Origin: Oscillospiraceae bacterium
GTDB lineage: Bacteria > Bacillota > Clostridia > Oscillospirales > Acutalibacteraceae
Assembly: GCA_015065645.1 (NCBI GenBank)
Contig: SVPW01000008.1
Location: forward strand, 1 to 64,000
Direction of reading: 5' to 3'
DNA: 64,000 nt
Position 1 is the first letter of the stretch, and every line of letters begins with the position of its first letter. Below, in pieces: positions 3,986 to 19,438 of this stretch. A model generated the notes under the pieces. It was not told the origin of the DNA and searched no databases. It was given only the letters and a program-made list of their open reading frames with translations. Position numbers and translations under genes: made by a program.

Positions 3986-5569
3986 TTGAACATTTTATTT
4001 TTAATAGCAATAATTTTGCTTGGTGTTTCCGCAGTATTTTCACTCCACCGTCAATTACAGATGTTACAGCAAAATTCATATTTCCCCTCCCGTTATTACG
4101 GCTGGATAAAAAATAATTATTCTGTTTTAACAGCACTTTCGGCTATTCTTTTTTGCGCCGTTTCTCTGCTTTATACCAAAGGCTTTTATCTCACTTTTTT
4201 AATAATTTCCGCAGTCTTACTTATCATAAGATTTTTCACAGCCATAAAGCTTCATAAAAAATCCATTAAAAAGTTAGTTGTTACTGCCCGTGTAAAAAGG
4301 CTTTTTGCAGCGGCTATAATACCGCTTGCGGCTCTTATTACCATAAGTGCGGTTTTTTATGATACATTGGCATCTGCAATTTGTATAATGATTGCCGTTA
4401 TGCTTTCCTGTATAACCCCATTACTTACCATTTTTAGTTGGATTATCACCTTTCCTTGCGAAAAGGCTGTTACACGCTGGTATATAAATGATGCCAAGAA
4501 AATTTTGCGTTCATACCGCAATCTCACCGTTATAGGCGTTACGGGAAGCTACGGAAAAACCACAACAAAATTCATTTTACAGCGTATTTTAAGCGAAAAG
4601 TTTAATGTTGTTGCCACACCGCAAAGCTTTAATACTCCGCTTGGCGTTGTAAGAACGGTGCGTGGTGAGCTAAAACCGCAAACGCAGGTTTTTATATGCG
4701 AAATGGGTGCTAAAAATATTGGTGATATCAAGGAAATTTGTGATATTGCAAATCCTCAATACGGCATAATCACCTCTGTTGGGGCACAGCATCTTGATAC
4801 CTTCCGTTCGGTGGATAACGTTTATAAAACCAAGTTTGAATTGGCCCATGCCGTTATTAAAAACGGCGGTGAAGCCTTTATAAACGGTTCAAGTGCAGAA
4901 ATTGCAGCAAGAACAGATAAAAACGCAAAAGGTTTCCGCATTTACGGAATGGATAATAGCCACGAATTTTTTGCGGAAAATATTTCCTATAGCCGTAACG
5001 GCTCAACCTTTGATTTGGTTCTTTCGGGAGAGCGTATTTCGGTTACAACACGGCTTTTGGGACTTCATTCTGTTAATGATATTGTTGCGGCGGCGGCTCT
5101 TGCTTACCAACTCGGCGTAACACCCGCACAAATCCGCTTTGCTGTATCTCAACTAAAGCCTACCGAGCATCGTTTAGAGCTTAAAAGCTTTAGAAACGGC
5201 TCACTCCTTATAGATGATGCATACAATTCCAACCCCGAAGGTTGCCTTGAAGCGGTAAGGGTATTGGGAAGCTTTGAGGGAATGAGAAAGGTTATAATAA
5301 CACCGGGACTTATTGAGCTTGGTGAAAAGGAATATGAATGTAATTATAACTTAGGGCTTACAGCGGCTCAATATTGTGATGATATTATTCTTGTGGGCAA
5401 AAACCGTTCAAAGCCTATGCATGACGCCGTTTTAACCACTGATTTTGATACAACCCACCTTTATATTGTTTCAAGCTTTGCAGAGGCTATGGAAATATAT
5501 GCCCCCACCGCCAATAACCAAAGTGTTGTTTTGCTTGAAAACGATTTACCCGATAACTACCTTAATTAG
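3986..5569 (+). CDS. murF: MurF-like Mur ligase (UDP-MurNAc-tripeptide--D-Ala-D-Ala ligase family), N-terminal TM segments; TTG start
   Basis: GVTGSYGKTTTKFIL ATP-binding; EMGAKNIGDI; DDAYNSNPEG motif. Confidence 0.85.
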   Translation: MNILFLIAIILLGVSAVFSLHRQLQMLQQNSYFPSRYYGWIKNNYSVLTALSAILFCAVSLLYTKGFYLTFLIISAVLLIIRFFTAIKLHKKSIKKLVVTARVKRLFAAAIIPLAALITISAVFYDTLASAICIMIAVMLSCITPLLTIFSWIITFPCEKAVTRWYINDAKKILRSYRNLTVIGVTGSYGKTTTKFILQRILSEKFNVVATPQSFNTPLGVVRTVRGELKPQTQVFICEMGAKNIGDIKEICDIANPQYGIITSVGAQHLDTFRSVDNVYKTKFELAHAVIKNGGEAFINGSSAEIAARTDKNAKGFRIYGMDNSHEFFAENISYSRNGSTFDLVLSGERISVTTRLLGLHSVNDIVAAAALAYQLGVTPAQIRFAVSQLKPTEHRLELKSFRNGSLLIDDAYNSNPEGCLEAVRVLGSFEGMRKVIITPGLIELGEKEYECNYNLGLTAAQYCDDIILVGKNRSKPMHDAVLTTDFDTTHLYIVSSFAEAMEIYAPTANNQSVVLLENDLPDNYLN

Positions 5570-5580
5570 GAGGATTTTAT

Positions 5581-6783
5581 ATGAAAGTAAATATTGCCGT
5601 TTTTTATGGTTGCCGTTCTGTTGAGCATGAGGTTTCAATAATTTCTGCCGTTCAGGCAATGCGTTCAATAAACCGTGAAAAATATGATGTTACCCCCGTT
5701 TATGTTACCAAAGATGGTGAAATGTATACAGGTGCATCCCTTTTTGATATAGATAATTATTCCAATTTAAAGAAACTGCTTAGCGAAAGTCAGCGTGTAT
5801 GCTTTTTGCGTGATAACGGAAAGGTAATTATGCGTTACTTAGACCAAGGCTTTATGCGCAAAAAGGCAGATGTTGCCATTGACTTGGCATTTCCCGTTGT
5901 TCACGGAACAAACTGTGAGGACGGCACCATTGCGGGATTTTTTGAATTTTTAAACTTACCGTATATAAGCTGTGATATACTTTCAGCAGCGGTTGGAATG
6001 GATAAATATGTTTTCAAAAATGTGCTTAAAAGTGCAGGGCTTCCGGTGCTTGATTGCGTTTGCTTCAGAGCCCGTGAATACACCGAAAACCAAGAACAAA
6101 TAACTGCTGAAATTACTGAAAAAATCGGTTTTCCGCTTATTATAAAGCCTGTAAATTTGGGTTCAAGCGTTGGTATTACCAAGGTTAAAACTCCGGAAGA
6201 GCTTGATGATGCTATTCGTTTGGCGCTTTCCTTTGCTGACCGCATACTTGCTGAGCGTGCAATTACATCACTAAGAGAAATAAACTGCTCAGTTCTTGGC
6301 GATGCAGATGATTGCAAAGCCAGCGTTTGCGAAGAACCGTTTATGCATGATGATATTCTTTCTTACGAAGATAAATACAAAGGCGGTTCAAAGAAAACAA
6401 ATGGCGCAAGTAAAGGAATGGCATCACTCAGCCGCAAGATTCCTGCCGATATAAGCGAAGAAAAATCCCAAGAAATAAGAGAGCTTGCCTGCAAAGTATT
6501 TAAGGCAACCGGTTCATCGGGAGTTGTTCGTATTGACTTTATGATAGATACCGAAACCGATACCGTTTACGCCAACGAAATAAACACTATTCCCGGTTCA
6601 CTTGCATTTTATCTTTGGGAGGCAACAGGTCTTTCTTATACAGATATGATTGACTGTCTTGTTGATGTGGCATTCCGCCGTGCACGCAACCGTGAGCAGC
6701 TTACATTCTCCATTGATACCAATATTCTTGATGGTGTATCATTTGGAACGAAAGGGGCTAAAGGCTCTTGTGCGAAATATTAA
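5581..6783 (+). CDS. ddl: D-alanine--D-alanine ligase
   Basis: GCRSVEHEVSIISA, PVNLGSSVGITKV, EINTIPGSLAFYLWEATGLSY. Confidence 0.93.
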   Translation: MKVNIAVFYGCRSVEHEVSIISAVQAMRSINREKYDVTPVYVTKDGEMYTGASLFDIDNYSNLKKLLSESQRVCFLRDNGKVIMRYLDQGFMRKKADVAIDLAFPVVHGTNCEDGTIAGFFEFLNLPYISCDILSAAVGMDKYVFKNVLKSAGLPVLDCVCFRAREYTENQEQITAEITEKIGFPLIIKPVNLGSSVGITKVKTPEELDDAIRLALSFADRILAERAITSLREINCSVLGDADDCKASVCEEPFMHDDILSYEDKYKGGSKKTNGASKGMASLSRKIPADISEEKSQEIRELACKVFKATGSSGVVRIDFMIDTETDTVYANEINTIPGSLAFYLWEATGLSYTDMIDCLVDVAFRRARNREQLTFSIDTNILDGVSFGTKGAKGSCAKY

Positions 6784-9604: not shown

Positions 9605-9616
9605 ATTAAAGCAAAC

Positions 9617-9652
9617 AGCCTCAAACGGAAATTCCGTTTGAGGCTTTCATTT
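9617..9652 (+). terminator. Rho-independent terminator after cpsD-like gene (twin copy 1)
   Basis: AGCCTCAAACGGAAATTCCGTTTGAGGCT then tcatttttt. Confidence 0.85.
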
Positions 9653-9744
9653 TTTACACTTTCAGCTTAACATTTTTAATTGATTTATCATATTCCTTAT
9701 GATATACTAAAACAAAGGCTTATCGCACAAAGGGGGATTTGGCT

Positions 9745-10734
9745 ATGCCTGAACATAATGAAAATAATATCATTTATGATGCAGCTATCAGCTATCATCA
9801 CGATACCGGATTTTATATGGCGCATATAATTTTTTCAAGCCTGGCATTAAACGGCTATAAGGTATTTATGGATAAAAATATGAATTCGGGTGAGTATGAG
9901 GATAAAATCAAAAACGCAATTAGTAAATGTAAAAATTTTATTGTTATTCTTTTCCCTGATGACCTTGAAGAATGTAAAAACGAAAATAGTTGGCTTAGCC
10001 GTGAATCTGCATGGGCTGTTGAATATGGTGTTCCCAATATTATACCAATTATGTGCGATGGTTTTAAGTGGCCTAAAACCGATGAGGATTTATCCGAAAG
10101 TATGAAGGTGGTTATGAGGAATAACGGTTTGCCGATTCATAAGGATAAATCTTTGGATAAGGATTTAGATGATCTATGTGATAATTACATAAAAAATGTA
10201 AATCAATCAAAATCCGGCATTACAACCGATCAATTTTTTAATTATAATCTAAACGGCAGGATTGGCTTTACAATTAACGGCGTGGATATGGCTTTTCACG
10301 CAGGCAATCCTTGGTTAGAACCCGGAAGAAGAAAAAAGCTTCTCACAAACTCATTGGAAAAAAATATTCCTTTTCGTGTTCTTATAAATACGGTTGATGC
10401 CGCAGAAAGCATAGCTCAATATATGCGTGACGAAACAGGTTCTTATAAAAAATTCTCTGAAGTTCGTGAAATATGGAAAAAGCTTGCATCTCTTTATCCA
10501 AATGTTTTGGAGGTTAGGGAGTGTAATATCCCTCTTATTCATGTATATCACCATGTAAAATTCACCGATGATACAACCGGCAAACAATCAGGTGAAGCAC
10601 ATATAAGATATTATGCGTATAACAATACCATACCTGAAAATGTGTTTGAACATAAAATCAGCAGCTCCTCAAACCACTATTCTGTTTATACAGATGAATT
10701 TGAATTTTTATGGAAAAAGAGCACCAAATTATAA
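9745..10734 (+). CDS. TIR-domain protein with C-terminal PLD-like/unknown domain
   Basis: YDAAISYHHDTGFYMAHIIFSSLALNGYKVFMDKN..GEYEDKIKNAISKCKNFIVILFPD..SWLSRESAWAVEYGVPNIIPIM; AGGGGG SD upstream of ATG 9745. Confidence 0.8.
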   Translation: MPEHNENNIIYDAAISYHHDTGFYMAHIIFSSLALNGYKVFMDKNMNSGEYEDKIKNAISKCKNFIVILFPDDLEECKNENSWLSRESAWAVEYGVPNIIPIMCDGFKWPKTDEDLSESMKVVMRNNGLPIHKDKSLDKDLDDLCDNYIKNVNQSKSGITTDQFFNYNLNGRIGFTINGVDMAFHAGNPWLEPGRRKKLLTNSLEKNIPFRVLINTVDAAESIAQYMRDETGSYKKFSEVREIWKKLASLYPNVLEVRECNIPLIHVYHHVKFTDDTTGKQSGEAHIRYYAYNNTIPENVFEHKISSSSNHYSVYTDEFEFLWKKSTKL

Positions 10735-10759
10735 TATTTTCATCAAGCATTATACAAAC

Positions 10760-10797
10760 AGCCTCAAACGGAAGTTCCGCTTGAGGCTGTGTTTTTA
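10760..10797 (+). terminator. Rho-independent terminator after TIR gene (twin copy 2)
   Basis: AGCCTCAAACGGAAGTTCCGCTTGAGGCT then gtgttttt. Confidence 0.85.
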
Positions 10798-10808
10798 TTA
10801 TTATATAT

Positions 10809-11252
10809 TTATTTGGTTCCCGTTGAACCAAAGCCACCGGCTCCACGGTCGGTTTCATCAAGAGACTGTGCCTCTTCAAAAGTGGCAGTTACAAAAGGTG
10901 CTATTACAAGCTGTGCCACCCGTTCACCATCGGCAATTTCCTGAATTTCATTTGAATGATTGTGAAGTGAAACCATTATTTCACCACGGTAGTCACTATC
11001 AATAACACCAACCTTGTTTGCAGGGGCAAGTCCACGCTTGGTTGCAATACCGCTTCTGGCATATATAAGGCCCACAAGCCCATCAGGAATCTGCATTGCA
11101 ATTCCTGTATGAATAAGCTTTGTTTCGCCCGGATTAAAGGTTACGGTTTCACCTGCGGTACAGGCATAAAGGTCAGCTCCTGCGGCTGCGGCAGAACCGT
11201 AACTTGGTGTTACTGCCGTTTTATCAAGACGAATAAATTTTACCGTTTGCAT
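10809..11252 (-). CDS. dut: dUTP diphosphatase
   Basis: AGADLYAC, ARSGIATKRGLAPANKVGVIDSDYRGEI, GERVAQLVI, RGAGGFGSTG motifs. Confidence 0.95.
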   Translation of the reverse strand: MQTVKFIRLDKTAVTPSYGSAAAAGADLYACTAGETVTFNPGETKLIHTGIAMQIPDGLVGLIYARSGIATKRGLAPANKVGVIDSDYRGEIMVSLHNHSNEIQEIADGERVAQLVIAPFVTATFEEAQSLDETDRGAGGFGSTGTK

Positions 11253-17518: not shown

Positions 17519-19438
17519 TTAGACGAATAAACAATCTTTGATTTTTGCTTTCATATTTTTCCAACGCCATTTTACAAATTTCATATATTCTTTTTCAAGT
17601 GTCACAGCATCAATATCTTCATTTAAAAGCCATTTCATACTAGTTTCGGTTGTGAAAGTATATCTTTCTTCAACATCATTGATCTTTCTGCCTTTTAAAT
17701 AATCTGTATCTTCATAGACTGTCTTTGCACCTTTTGATCTATTGCTTTCTTCTGGAAGATAACACAAATTACCAACTGAACTTATTGGGAGTTTCAAATA
17801 TTCTACATCTTTTTTGCCACGATTTACTTTCTCTAACATTTTTTTGACTTTTGATTTTGGAACCAAGTGTTCTATATCAAAATCCTTTCCACTTAGTAAA
17901 TCTTCGGCTCTGAAAGTATTTGCATGAACAATATTTAAGATAATTTTTTCTGCCTCTTTTGGTGTAGCAATTTTTTTATCTTCTCTGCGGTCAGATAAAA
18001 CGCTACTAAACCATAAGTCCAAATTGCTTTCAAATTCTTCCCAAGAAATAGACTTGTAATAATATATGCCATTAAATATTATATTATTAAGGCGCTTATC
18101 GCCTGAACCACGCCAACGCTCTTGTAAGCAATCGATTACATAACTCTTGATACAATTATTGACAAATGTTTTTCTGCGCTCTTCCCAAACATCTGACGGT
18201 TTAGTAAAATCAAAATATCTGCTGATAATTTTTTCTCCAAGATTATCTTTTGTAAAAATTACGAACTTTTGTGTAAAAGCAAAAGCAATGATAGAAACTA
18301 TTTGCATTTCTGTATGATTAACACCTGAAAACTTTTCATTTCTTCTATTACCTTTAAACGAAGTAACTACTTTTAAAATTTTATCAATTTCACCAACAGT
18401 ATCTAGTATTTTACACAAAAAGAGATTTATCGTTGCATCATTTTTTAAACACTCATAAATATTAGTATGTAATTGATCCATTTCGCTAACACGATAACCC
18501 AAGCATGCATTTATCAAGGCAAAACCGACACTTTCAACTTTGGTTTTACTTTCATTTCTTCCAAAAAGTTGTGGATATTGGTCACATAAAAGTTTTCCAT
18601 AGCCGAAACATAAATCATAAAAGTTTAAGGTTTTATGTTTATGAATTTGAGTTGAATCGTAATCGTCTATTTCAAAATTTCCATCAACCATAATATCATA
18701 ACAAGCACAAACATAATCAAGTAATTTTTCTAATCTTTTGTCAGTTATCTTTACATTAGATACGCTCCATGCCGCTTTGTATATTTGATATTTTGTAAGT
18801 CTAGAACCAGTATTGTTTATGCGTTCAAAAATTTCAGGCATGTTTTTCTCACTGCCATATAATATAATAACAGGTATTTTGACTTTTAAAATAAAATCAC
18901 ATATTGTCACATATTCCTCTAGAATTGGCTTAATCAATTCAGCAACATCTTTAACCTTTTTTTCTAAGGTTGGATAATCATGGCAAATCGTATATGCAAA
19001 CTCATAATATTGCATACCACGAACATCTTTCATAGTTTCGTGCTGTTTCACCCAATCCATAAGTTTATGCGATATGTCATCAGCAATTTTCGCCTTAATT
19101 TCTTCCGAGTTATTGAGATTCATTAAATCAACAATTTTGTTAACGATATGTTCATCAATGTTTTGTTCGTCGAAAAATCTTGTTGGATTTGTGACAAATT
19201 CAAAAATAGTAGAACAACGCTGTAAGCCATCTATTATTTGTTGTTTTCTATTGGCATCTTCATAAAGTAAAACAGAGCCAAAAGGATAACCTTTTTTGAT
19301 GGTATCAATCAAGTTGCGCTTTTGATCGATTTTCCAAACACAACCACGCTGATATGGGGGTATAGTTATTTGCTTGCTTTCAATGGCAATTTGCAGTTCT
19401 TCAACACTGTATTCGCTTGCCTTCCACCAATTTTCCAT
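17519..19438 (-). CDS. DUF262/DUF1524 (GmrSD-like) single-chain restriction-type protein
   Basis: N-terminal ITIPPYQRGCVWKIDQKRNLIDTIKKGYPFGSVLLYE..QQIIDGLQRCSTI (DUF262); C-terminal FDIEHLVPKSK..SVGNLCYLPEESNRSKGAK (DUF1524 HNH). Confidence 0.88.
   Translation of the reverse strand: MENWWKASEYSVEELQIAIESKQITIPPYQRGCVWKIDQKRNLIDTIKKGYPFGSVLLYEDANRKQQIIDGLQRCSTIFEFVTNPTRFFDEQNIDEHIVNKIVDLMNLNNSEEIKAKIADDISHKLMDWVKQHETMKDVRGMQYYEFAYTICHDYPTLEKKVKDVAELIKPILEEYVTICDFILKVKIPVIILYGSEKNMPEIFERINNTGSRLTKYQIYKAAWSVSNVKITDKRLEKLLDYVCACYDIMVDGNFEIDDYDSTQIHKHKTLNFYDLCFGYGKLLCDQYPQLFGRNESKTKVESVGFALINACLGYRVSEMDQLHTNIYECLKNDATINLFLCKILDTVGEIDKILKVVTSFKGNRRNEKFSGVNHTEMQIVSIIAFAFTQKFVIFTKDNLGEKIISRYFDFTKPSDVWEERRKTFVNNCIKSYVIDCLQERWRGSGDKRLNNIIFNGIYYYKSISWEEFESNLDLWFSSVLSDRREDKKIATPKEAEKIILNIVHANTFRAEDLLSGKDFDIEHLVPKSKVKKMLEKVNRGKKDVEYLKLPISSVGNLCYLPEESNRSKGAKTVYEDTDYLKGRKINDVEERYTFTTETSMKWLLNEDIDAVTLEKEYMKFVKWRWKNMKAKIKDCLFV

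Follow-up and report, generated by a model that had tools for sequence, protein, structure and literature searches.

What could trigger a TIR enzyme that is encoded by a single gene? TIR enzymes are common in immunity, and the trigger of a given TIR is usually the missing piece. The question is raised here by a gene of Oscillospiraceae bacterium (gut-type Clostridia), found in a stretch of 64,000 nucleotides, hereafter the window, that comprises positions 1-64,000 of the forward strand of contig SVPW01000008.1 (assembly GCA_015065645.1). The reading frame lies exactly at 9745-10734 (+), starts with ATG, and encodes 329 aa (Table 1). Most likely, this single gene encodes a TIR effector of the SARM1 class whose trigger would be a new, previously unmodelled pseudo-PLD domain; the chance that the protein forms half of a TIR/RyR signalling pair is real as well.

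Table 1. Features of the TIR gene and its flanks, in window coordinates.
Feature	Position	Strand	Basis
TIR + pseudo-PLD fusion protein, whole gene, 329 aa	9745..10734	+	Reading of the ORF; orthologue L009:5551-6540 is 48% identical
Sigma-70-like promoter TTGATT-17-TATACT, TG before the second hexamer	9680..9708	+	Consensus scan
Ribosome-binding site AAGGGGG, 8 nt upstream of ATG 9745	9730..9736	+	Sequence read directly
SARM1-class TIR domain, residues 11-131	9775..10137	+	TIR_2; SARM1 structures; four-TIR profile
Codon of Glu87, predicted catalytic Glu; W83 before it	10003..10005	+	Alignment to SARM1; invariant in four aligned TIRs
Linker, residues 132-160	10138..10224	+	Gap between the limits of TIR and C-terminal domain
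Pseudo-PLD domain, residues ~161-329	10225..10731	+	Family alignment A3; AlphaFold2 model; Foldseek
Codon of His266, kept in 8/9 family members	10540..10542	+	Family alignment
C-terminal signature E318-F-E320-F-L-W323	10696..10713	+	E318, E320, and W323 invariant in 9/9 members
Intrinsic terminator after the CpsD-like gene	9617..9645 (about 9614-9648)	+	Near-identical twin of the terminator after the TIR gene
Second stem-loop copy, in the gap that separates the TIR gene from the convergent dUTPase gene	10760..10788 (about 10757-10791)	.	Sequence scan

The TIR gene is convergent with a dUTPase gene and lies downstream of a separately terminated CpsD-like gene; therefore, it is a monocistron. 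A promoter-like site and a ribosome-binding site precede it, and a terminator follows it. The promoter-like site, which scores 9/12, is a consensus match alone, ten such sites being found in the region versus 6.3 expected by chance. Near-identical twin stem-loop terminators of 33 bp flank the gene and are the sole two copies in the 1.86 Mb assembly. They may be a trace of the route by which the gene arrived; a target-site duplication was considered as an explanation and not adopted. The G+C content of the gene is 0.34 versus 0.38-0.48 in the flanking housekeeping genes. A 130-aa ORF at 10613-11005, which overlaps the end of the gene, is without independent support.

As named from sequence reading, the neighbours are Wzz/CpsC-like and CpsD-like genes on one side and dUTPase, NrdG, and NrdD genes on the other. 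The initial annotation stated that no ThsA/ThsB or cyclase gene is adjacent, and this holds: the neighbours are envelope-type and nucleotide-metabolism genes, with no SAVED, STING, or Ago gene among them either. The TIR gene lies outside any defence island, the nearest defence-like gene being a DUF262/GmrSD-type ORF (17519-19438) 7 kb away. That ORF has a low G+C content, matches GmrSD_N/DUF262 (Pfam E 1.5e-28), and is of a restriction or defence type.

Among solved structures, those closest to the N-terminal part of the protein are the TIR domains of SARM1. Pfam TIR_2 matches residues 15-110 above the cut-off (E 1.9e-7), and the best phmmer matches in the PDB are all SARM1 or TIR-1 (residues 12-130, E 6.5e-17 and worse). 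When four such TIRs from Clostridia are combined into a profile, SARM1 is matched with an E of 1e-35 versus 5e-4 for the bacterial AbTIR. The SWLSRE segment of the window TIR aligns with DWVHKE of SARM1, and E87 falls in the catalytic Glu column, which we take to be that of E642. W83 and E87 fall on the W and E of SARM1 W-V-H-K-E and are both invariant across the four aligned TIRs; the DGFxWP segment of SARM1 is retained as well. Residues 11-131 are classed as a SARM1-class TIR with the predicted catalytic Glu and Trp retained, and these statistically secure matches bear out the earlier reading of an N-terminal TIR with a plausible catalytic Glu. Judged by its sequence, the window TIR is likely an NAD+-destroying enzyme. 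The TIR of SARM1, itself an NADase, branches inside a bacterial clade (PMC13142454); therefore, to find a bacterial TIR of the SARM1 class is expected rather than astonishing. In the plasmid scan, the TIR part by itself matches two Paraburkholderia plasmids. A single-sequence AlphaFold2 model of the full-length protein reached a pLDDT of 36.

The C-terminal part is of a different kind. Over residues ~160-329, none of the Pfam, NCBIfam, PADLOC, and PHROG models reaches its cut-off; matches to Retrotran_gag_2 (E 0.01), INTS13, and glutamine synthetase were judged to be chance. A profile of the domain found no credible match among solved structures by sequence, and hhalign of the domain to E. coli PssA stayed below significance. 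As a result, the assignment to the PLD superfamily rests on predicted structure. In one relative, a PLDc_2 match reaches only E 0.09. An AlphaFold2 model of residues 153-329 (10201-10731), made from seven aligned sequences with L045 and L046 left out, has a pLDDT of 86.6 and a pTM of 0.85. In a Foldseek search of the PDB with this model, the best match is DUF1669 of FAM83A (4urj; E 5e-4, probability 1.00, 174 alignment columns), followed by PssA (E 1e-3), then phospholipase D and the polyphosphate kinase PPK1, all of the PLD superfamily. These matches span E 5e-4 to 5e-2 with modest TM-scores of 0.41-0.50; therefore, the resemblance of the modelled domain to PLD is taken as a superfamily-level match.

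It is a true family, of which nine members align (alignment A3), with G187, W244, P263, E318, E320, and W323 invariant and H266 present in eight of the nine. The HKD motif, HxK(x)4D, is absent from all nine aligned members. Because the predicted fold is PLD-like but no member has the HKD motif, we refer to the domain as a pseudo-PLD. The conserved His266 opens a strand in the model; by strand order it probably occupies the place of the HKD His, with no counterpart to the other two HKD residues, Lys and Asp. The initial annotation had guessed a degenerate PLD-like fold for this region, and the guess is supported by the predicted model, whose best matches are DUF1669 and PssA, and by the lack of the HKD motif in the family. 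Its further claim that the domain is not a known Thoeris, SAVED, STING, or Ago partner agrees with a fold search that led to the PLD superfamily and with the lack of any library match.

The pseudo-PLD domain is found with several partners. The fusion with a TIR was found in the window gene and in a single orthologue (L006/L009), a 329-aa protein from another family of the same class that is 48% identical over 322 residues; the gene is thus preserved as one unit. L007/L012 is a stand-alone domain of 155 aa. In L045 the domain follows a winged-helix-like N-terminus (weak Pfam winged-helix matches, E 0.07-0.2), and in L046 one copy follows an unrelated N-terminal domain. Two Ruminococcus proteins (L010:4801-6453 and L011:1424-3052) have an unmodelled N-terminal domain of ~210 aa and then two pseudo-PLD domains in tandem. 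The domain is rare, occurring in about 1% or fewer of the Clostridia genomes sampled: with the genome of the window counted each time, members were found in 3/391 genomes of the class, 3/295 of the order, and 1/399 of the phylum. Scans of viral contigs, phages, and plasmids found no close relatives; therefore, no phage or plasmid record is known to carry the domain.

In a 60-genome search the TIR gene was absent from all 36 congeners, save for a TIR of different architecture. A search for synteny around the CpsD locus gave none in the nearest congeners: at the best congener CpsD loci, neither a TIR gene nor a dUTPase gene follows in the stretch examined, and none of the congeners offered an empty insertion site.

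Neighbours were also noted at two other loci of the family. The stand-alone copy lies beside a Fic gene and a gene for a 949-aa TPR protein (L012:1230-4079 and 4677-5714). The N-terminus of the 949-aa protein reads as DUF4062-like; Pfam confirmed Fic and TPR, not DUF4062. Adjoining the L046 protein is a 357-aa gene (L054:8428-9501) whose C-terminus likewise reads as a PLD-like sensor (DPECDYALELMK...PISYSILQ...FNRIF), with no library match.

How might such a protein work? One protein joins the dead-enzyme fold to a wHTH-like N-terminus, two join it to a TIR, and others carry it in tandem, a pattern suggestive of an input module. The arrangement fits a C-terminal input (sensor or oligomerization) module and a TIR output, and the C-terminal domain probably triggers the TIR in phage defence. 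What the analysis shows is the anatomy: the gene, the class of the TIR and its catalytic residues, the prediction of a PLD-like fold, the lost HKD motif, and the exchange of partners by the C-terminal domain. From this we infer that the fusion protein would sense, oligomerize, cleave NAD+, and have a role in defence, and we lean, with somewhat better than even confidence, towards a one-gene, two-module stress or defence protein that acts by abortive infection. The pseudo-PLD, its PLD catalysis lost, would bind a ligand or protein linked to infection or stress, and this binding would cluster the fusion protein. TIRs require clustering to complete their active site (PMC13174449), as is also generally known; the clustered TIRs would do so around E87. 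NAD+ would then be split into nicotinamide and either ADP-ribose or its cyclic form, and the cell would stop growing. The SARM1-class TIR with W83 and E87, the PLD-like fold without an HKD motif, the exchange of a TIR for a regulator-like partner, patchy presence, the single-gene layout, and the Fic and TPR genes near the stand-alone copy were counted in favour of this two-module protein; counted against it were the lack of a defence island, the RyR operon of the orthologue (see below), and the Foldseek TM-scores of 0.4-0.5. In this small TIR protein, encoded by one gene, the candidate trigger is a compact domain that lacks a library model. Since tandem copies and a copy behind a regulator-like N-terminus exist too, a direct search for the ligand of the domain is feasible.

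The protein can be compared with several known systems. SARM1/TIR-1, an animal NADase, is the closest solved TIR and shares the catalytic Glu, the Trp before it, and DGFxWP. However, SARM1 has N-terminal ARM and SAM domains (NMN/NAD sensing, octamer), whereas the window protein has a C-terminal pseudo-PLD instead; neither ARM nor SAM was found in it, only the TIR and the PLD-like domain. Thus the protein carries a SARM1-class TIR without being a SARM1. As in Thoeris, a bacterial TIR may make an NAD-derived signal, but the window has no adjacent ThsA, macro, caspase-like, or other effector gene; PADLOC gave no Thoeris match, and in the profile search of the PDB, SARM1 heads the list and ThsB is not on it. 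To our knowledge, an extra pseudo-PLD domain is not a feature of Thoeris. DUF1669 of FAM83A, a PLD pseudo-enzyme whose HKD motif is also degenerate, is the top structural match of the C-terminal domain (TM-score about 0.46), but the two have no detectable sequence similarity, and we know of no TIR fusion of DUF1669. As to the TIR-SAVED and TIR-STING proteins of CBASS and Pycsar, the window protein has no SAVED or STING domain and no cyclase nearby; the SAVED_TIR model overlaps its TIR weakly (E 0.003, residues 15-71). As to SPARTA, there is no APAZ domain and no adjacent pAgo gene. In outline the protein is like Swarozyc, a single protein with an NADase and an auxiliary domain that senses phage, although DUF4062 of Swarozyc is a different TIR-like family (PMC13174449).

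Two other readings were weighed. The TIR could be metabolic or regulatory, tuning NAD+ or signals for cell-envelope or nucleotide metabolism, as its Wzz/CpsD-like, dUTPase, and anaerobic ribonucleotide reductase neighbours would suggest. However, a monocistronic gene that is convergent with dUTPase does not imply regulation shared with these neighbours, absence from every congener searched is unusual for a housekeeping gene, and the context is not conserved at the best congener CpsD loci; we consider such a role quite unlikely. It is very improbable that the TIR is catalytically dead and serves as a pure interaction domain, or that the gene is decaying. The gene is rare and patchy, and its G+C content is as low as in recently acquired genes, but the frame is full-length, the catalytic Glu and Trp are retained, and the orthologue can be aligned end to end.

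Another reading moves the effect to a second protein. The TIR would act as a Thoeris-like producer of an ADP-ribose-type signal, and a separate TrkA-like/RyR-like membrane protein would read the signal via its RyR part, with a change in ion flux or cell killing as the outcome; the two genes would be adjacent in the orthologue, and in the window they would be separated or the reader lost. The orthologue L009 is the last of a three-gene set in which the reading frames overlap or abut, in the order of a 739-aa membrane/TrkA-like/RyR-like ORF, a 99-aa RyR gene, and the TIR gene. The 99-aa gene matches Pfam RyR with an E of 3e-35 and animal RyR repeats with 1e-63. For the 739-aa protein, assignment to RyR is weak (E 0.08 in Pfam, 3e-7 for a profile against RyR structures), and neither PADLOC nor NCBIfam has a model that matches it. 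Homologues of this membrane protein adjoin TIR genes of another architecture in L050 (a Butyrivibrio plasmid), L052 (another species of the genus of the window), and L059. Phage RyR domains bind or cleave the immune signals 2'cADPR and 3'cADPR (preprint PMC13232231). One such phage protein, RyDEP, has an RyR domain of the kind encoded beside L009 (PMC13232231), but no RyR gene is present in the window, and RyDEP is relevant only through the genes that surround the orthologue. A distant homologue of the membrane protein, 722 aa long, is encoded on another contig of the genome of the window (L075, contig C1).

The L009 operon, the recurring pairs, L075, and the handling of cADPR by phage RyR domains make the separate reader a serious rival, albeit a doubtful one on the whole. 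Against it, no TrkA-like/RyR-like gene is adjacent to the window TIR gene, L075 is a weak match (E 6.6e-7) with no TIR neighbour within 3.4 kb, and the Pfam RyR model, in a search that had no positive control, finds no match in the genome of the window. The 739-aa protein has homologues in 23/341 genomes of the class, and at their loci an adjacent TIR was detected only in that of the orthologue and in L059. This count is a lower bound, as it covers 1.5 kb flanks and uses a TIR profile built from four sequences; the L050 and L052 pairs were found outside this survey. The term self-contained in the initial annotation is thus half supported: the window gene is a lone monocistron with no gene of a known TIR system beside it, whereas the operon of L009 with its two RyR-type genes argues that at least the orthologue does not act alone, and L075 may be a partner encoded elsewhere. 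We regard as unlikely a scheme that joins both ideas, in which a SARM1-class TIR activated by its own pseudo-PLD sensor would make an ADP-ribose signal whose reader would be a membrane protein that combines an RyR domain and TrkA-like NAD(P)-binding folds, its gene lying beside the TIR gene in the orthologue and at a distant place in the genome of the window. The occurrence of a SARM1-class TIR with the RyR-domain genes of the orthologue makes a link between a SARM1-type TIR and an RyR-type reader testable in bacteria. If true, the joint scheme would pair the bacterial kin of SARM1, which in humans is a nerve-death enzyme, with the bacterial kin of the ryanodine-receptor repeat.

Pairs of a TIR gene and a TrkA-like/RyR-like membrane gene recur in Clostridia (L009:3051-6540; L052:1987-5866; L050:2399-6978; L059). 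On a Priestia plasmid (L049:1653-9862), an RyR-domain gene directly follows a gene for an adenylate/guanylate cyclase, with a TIR gene and a Pycsar effector close by, and here an RyR part in a Pycsar-like locus is possible.
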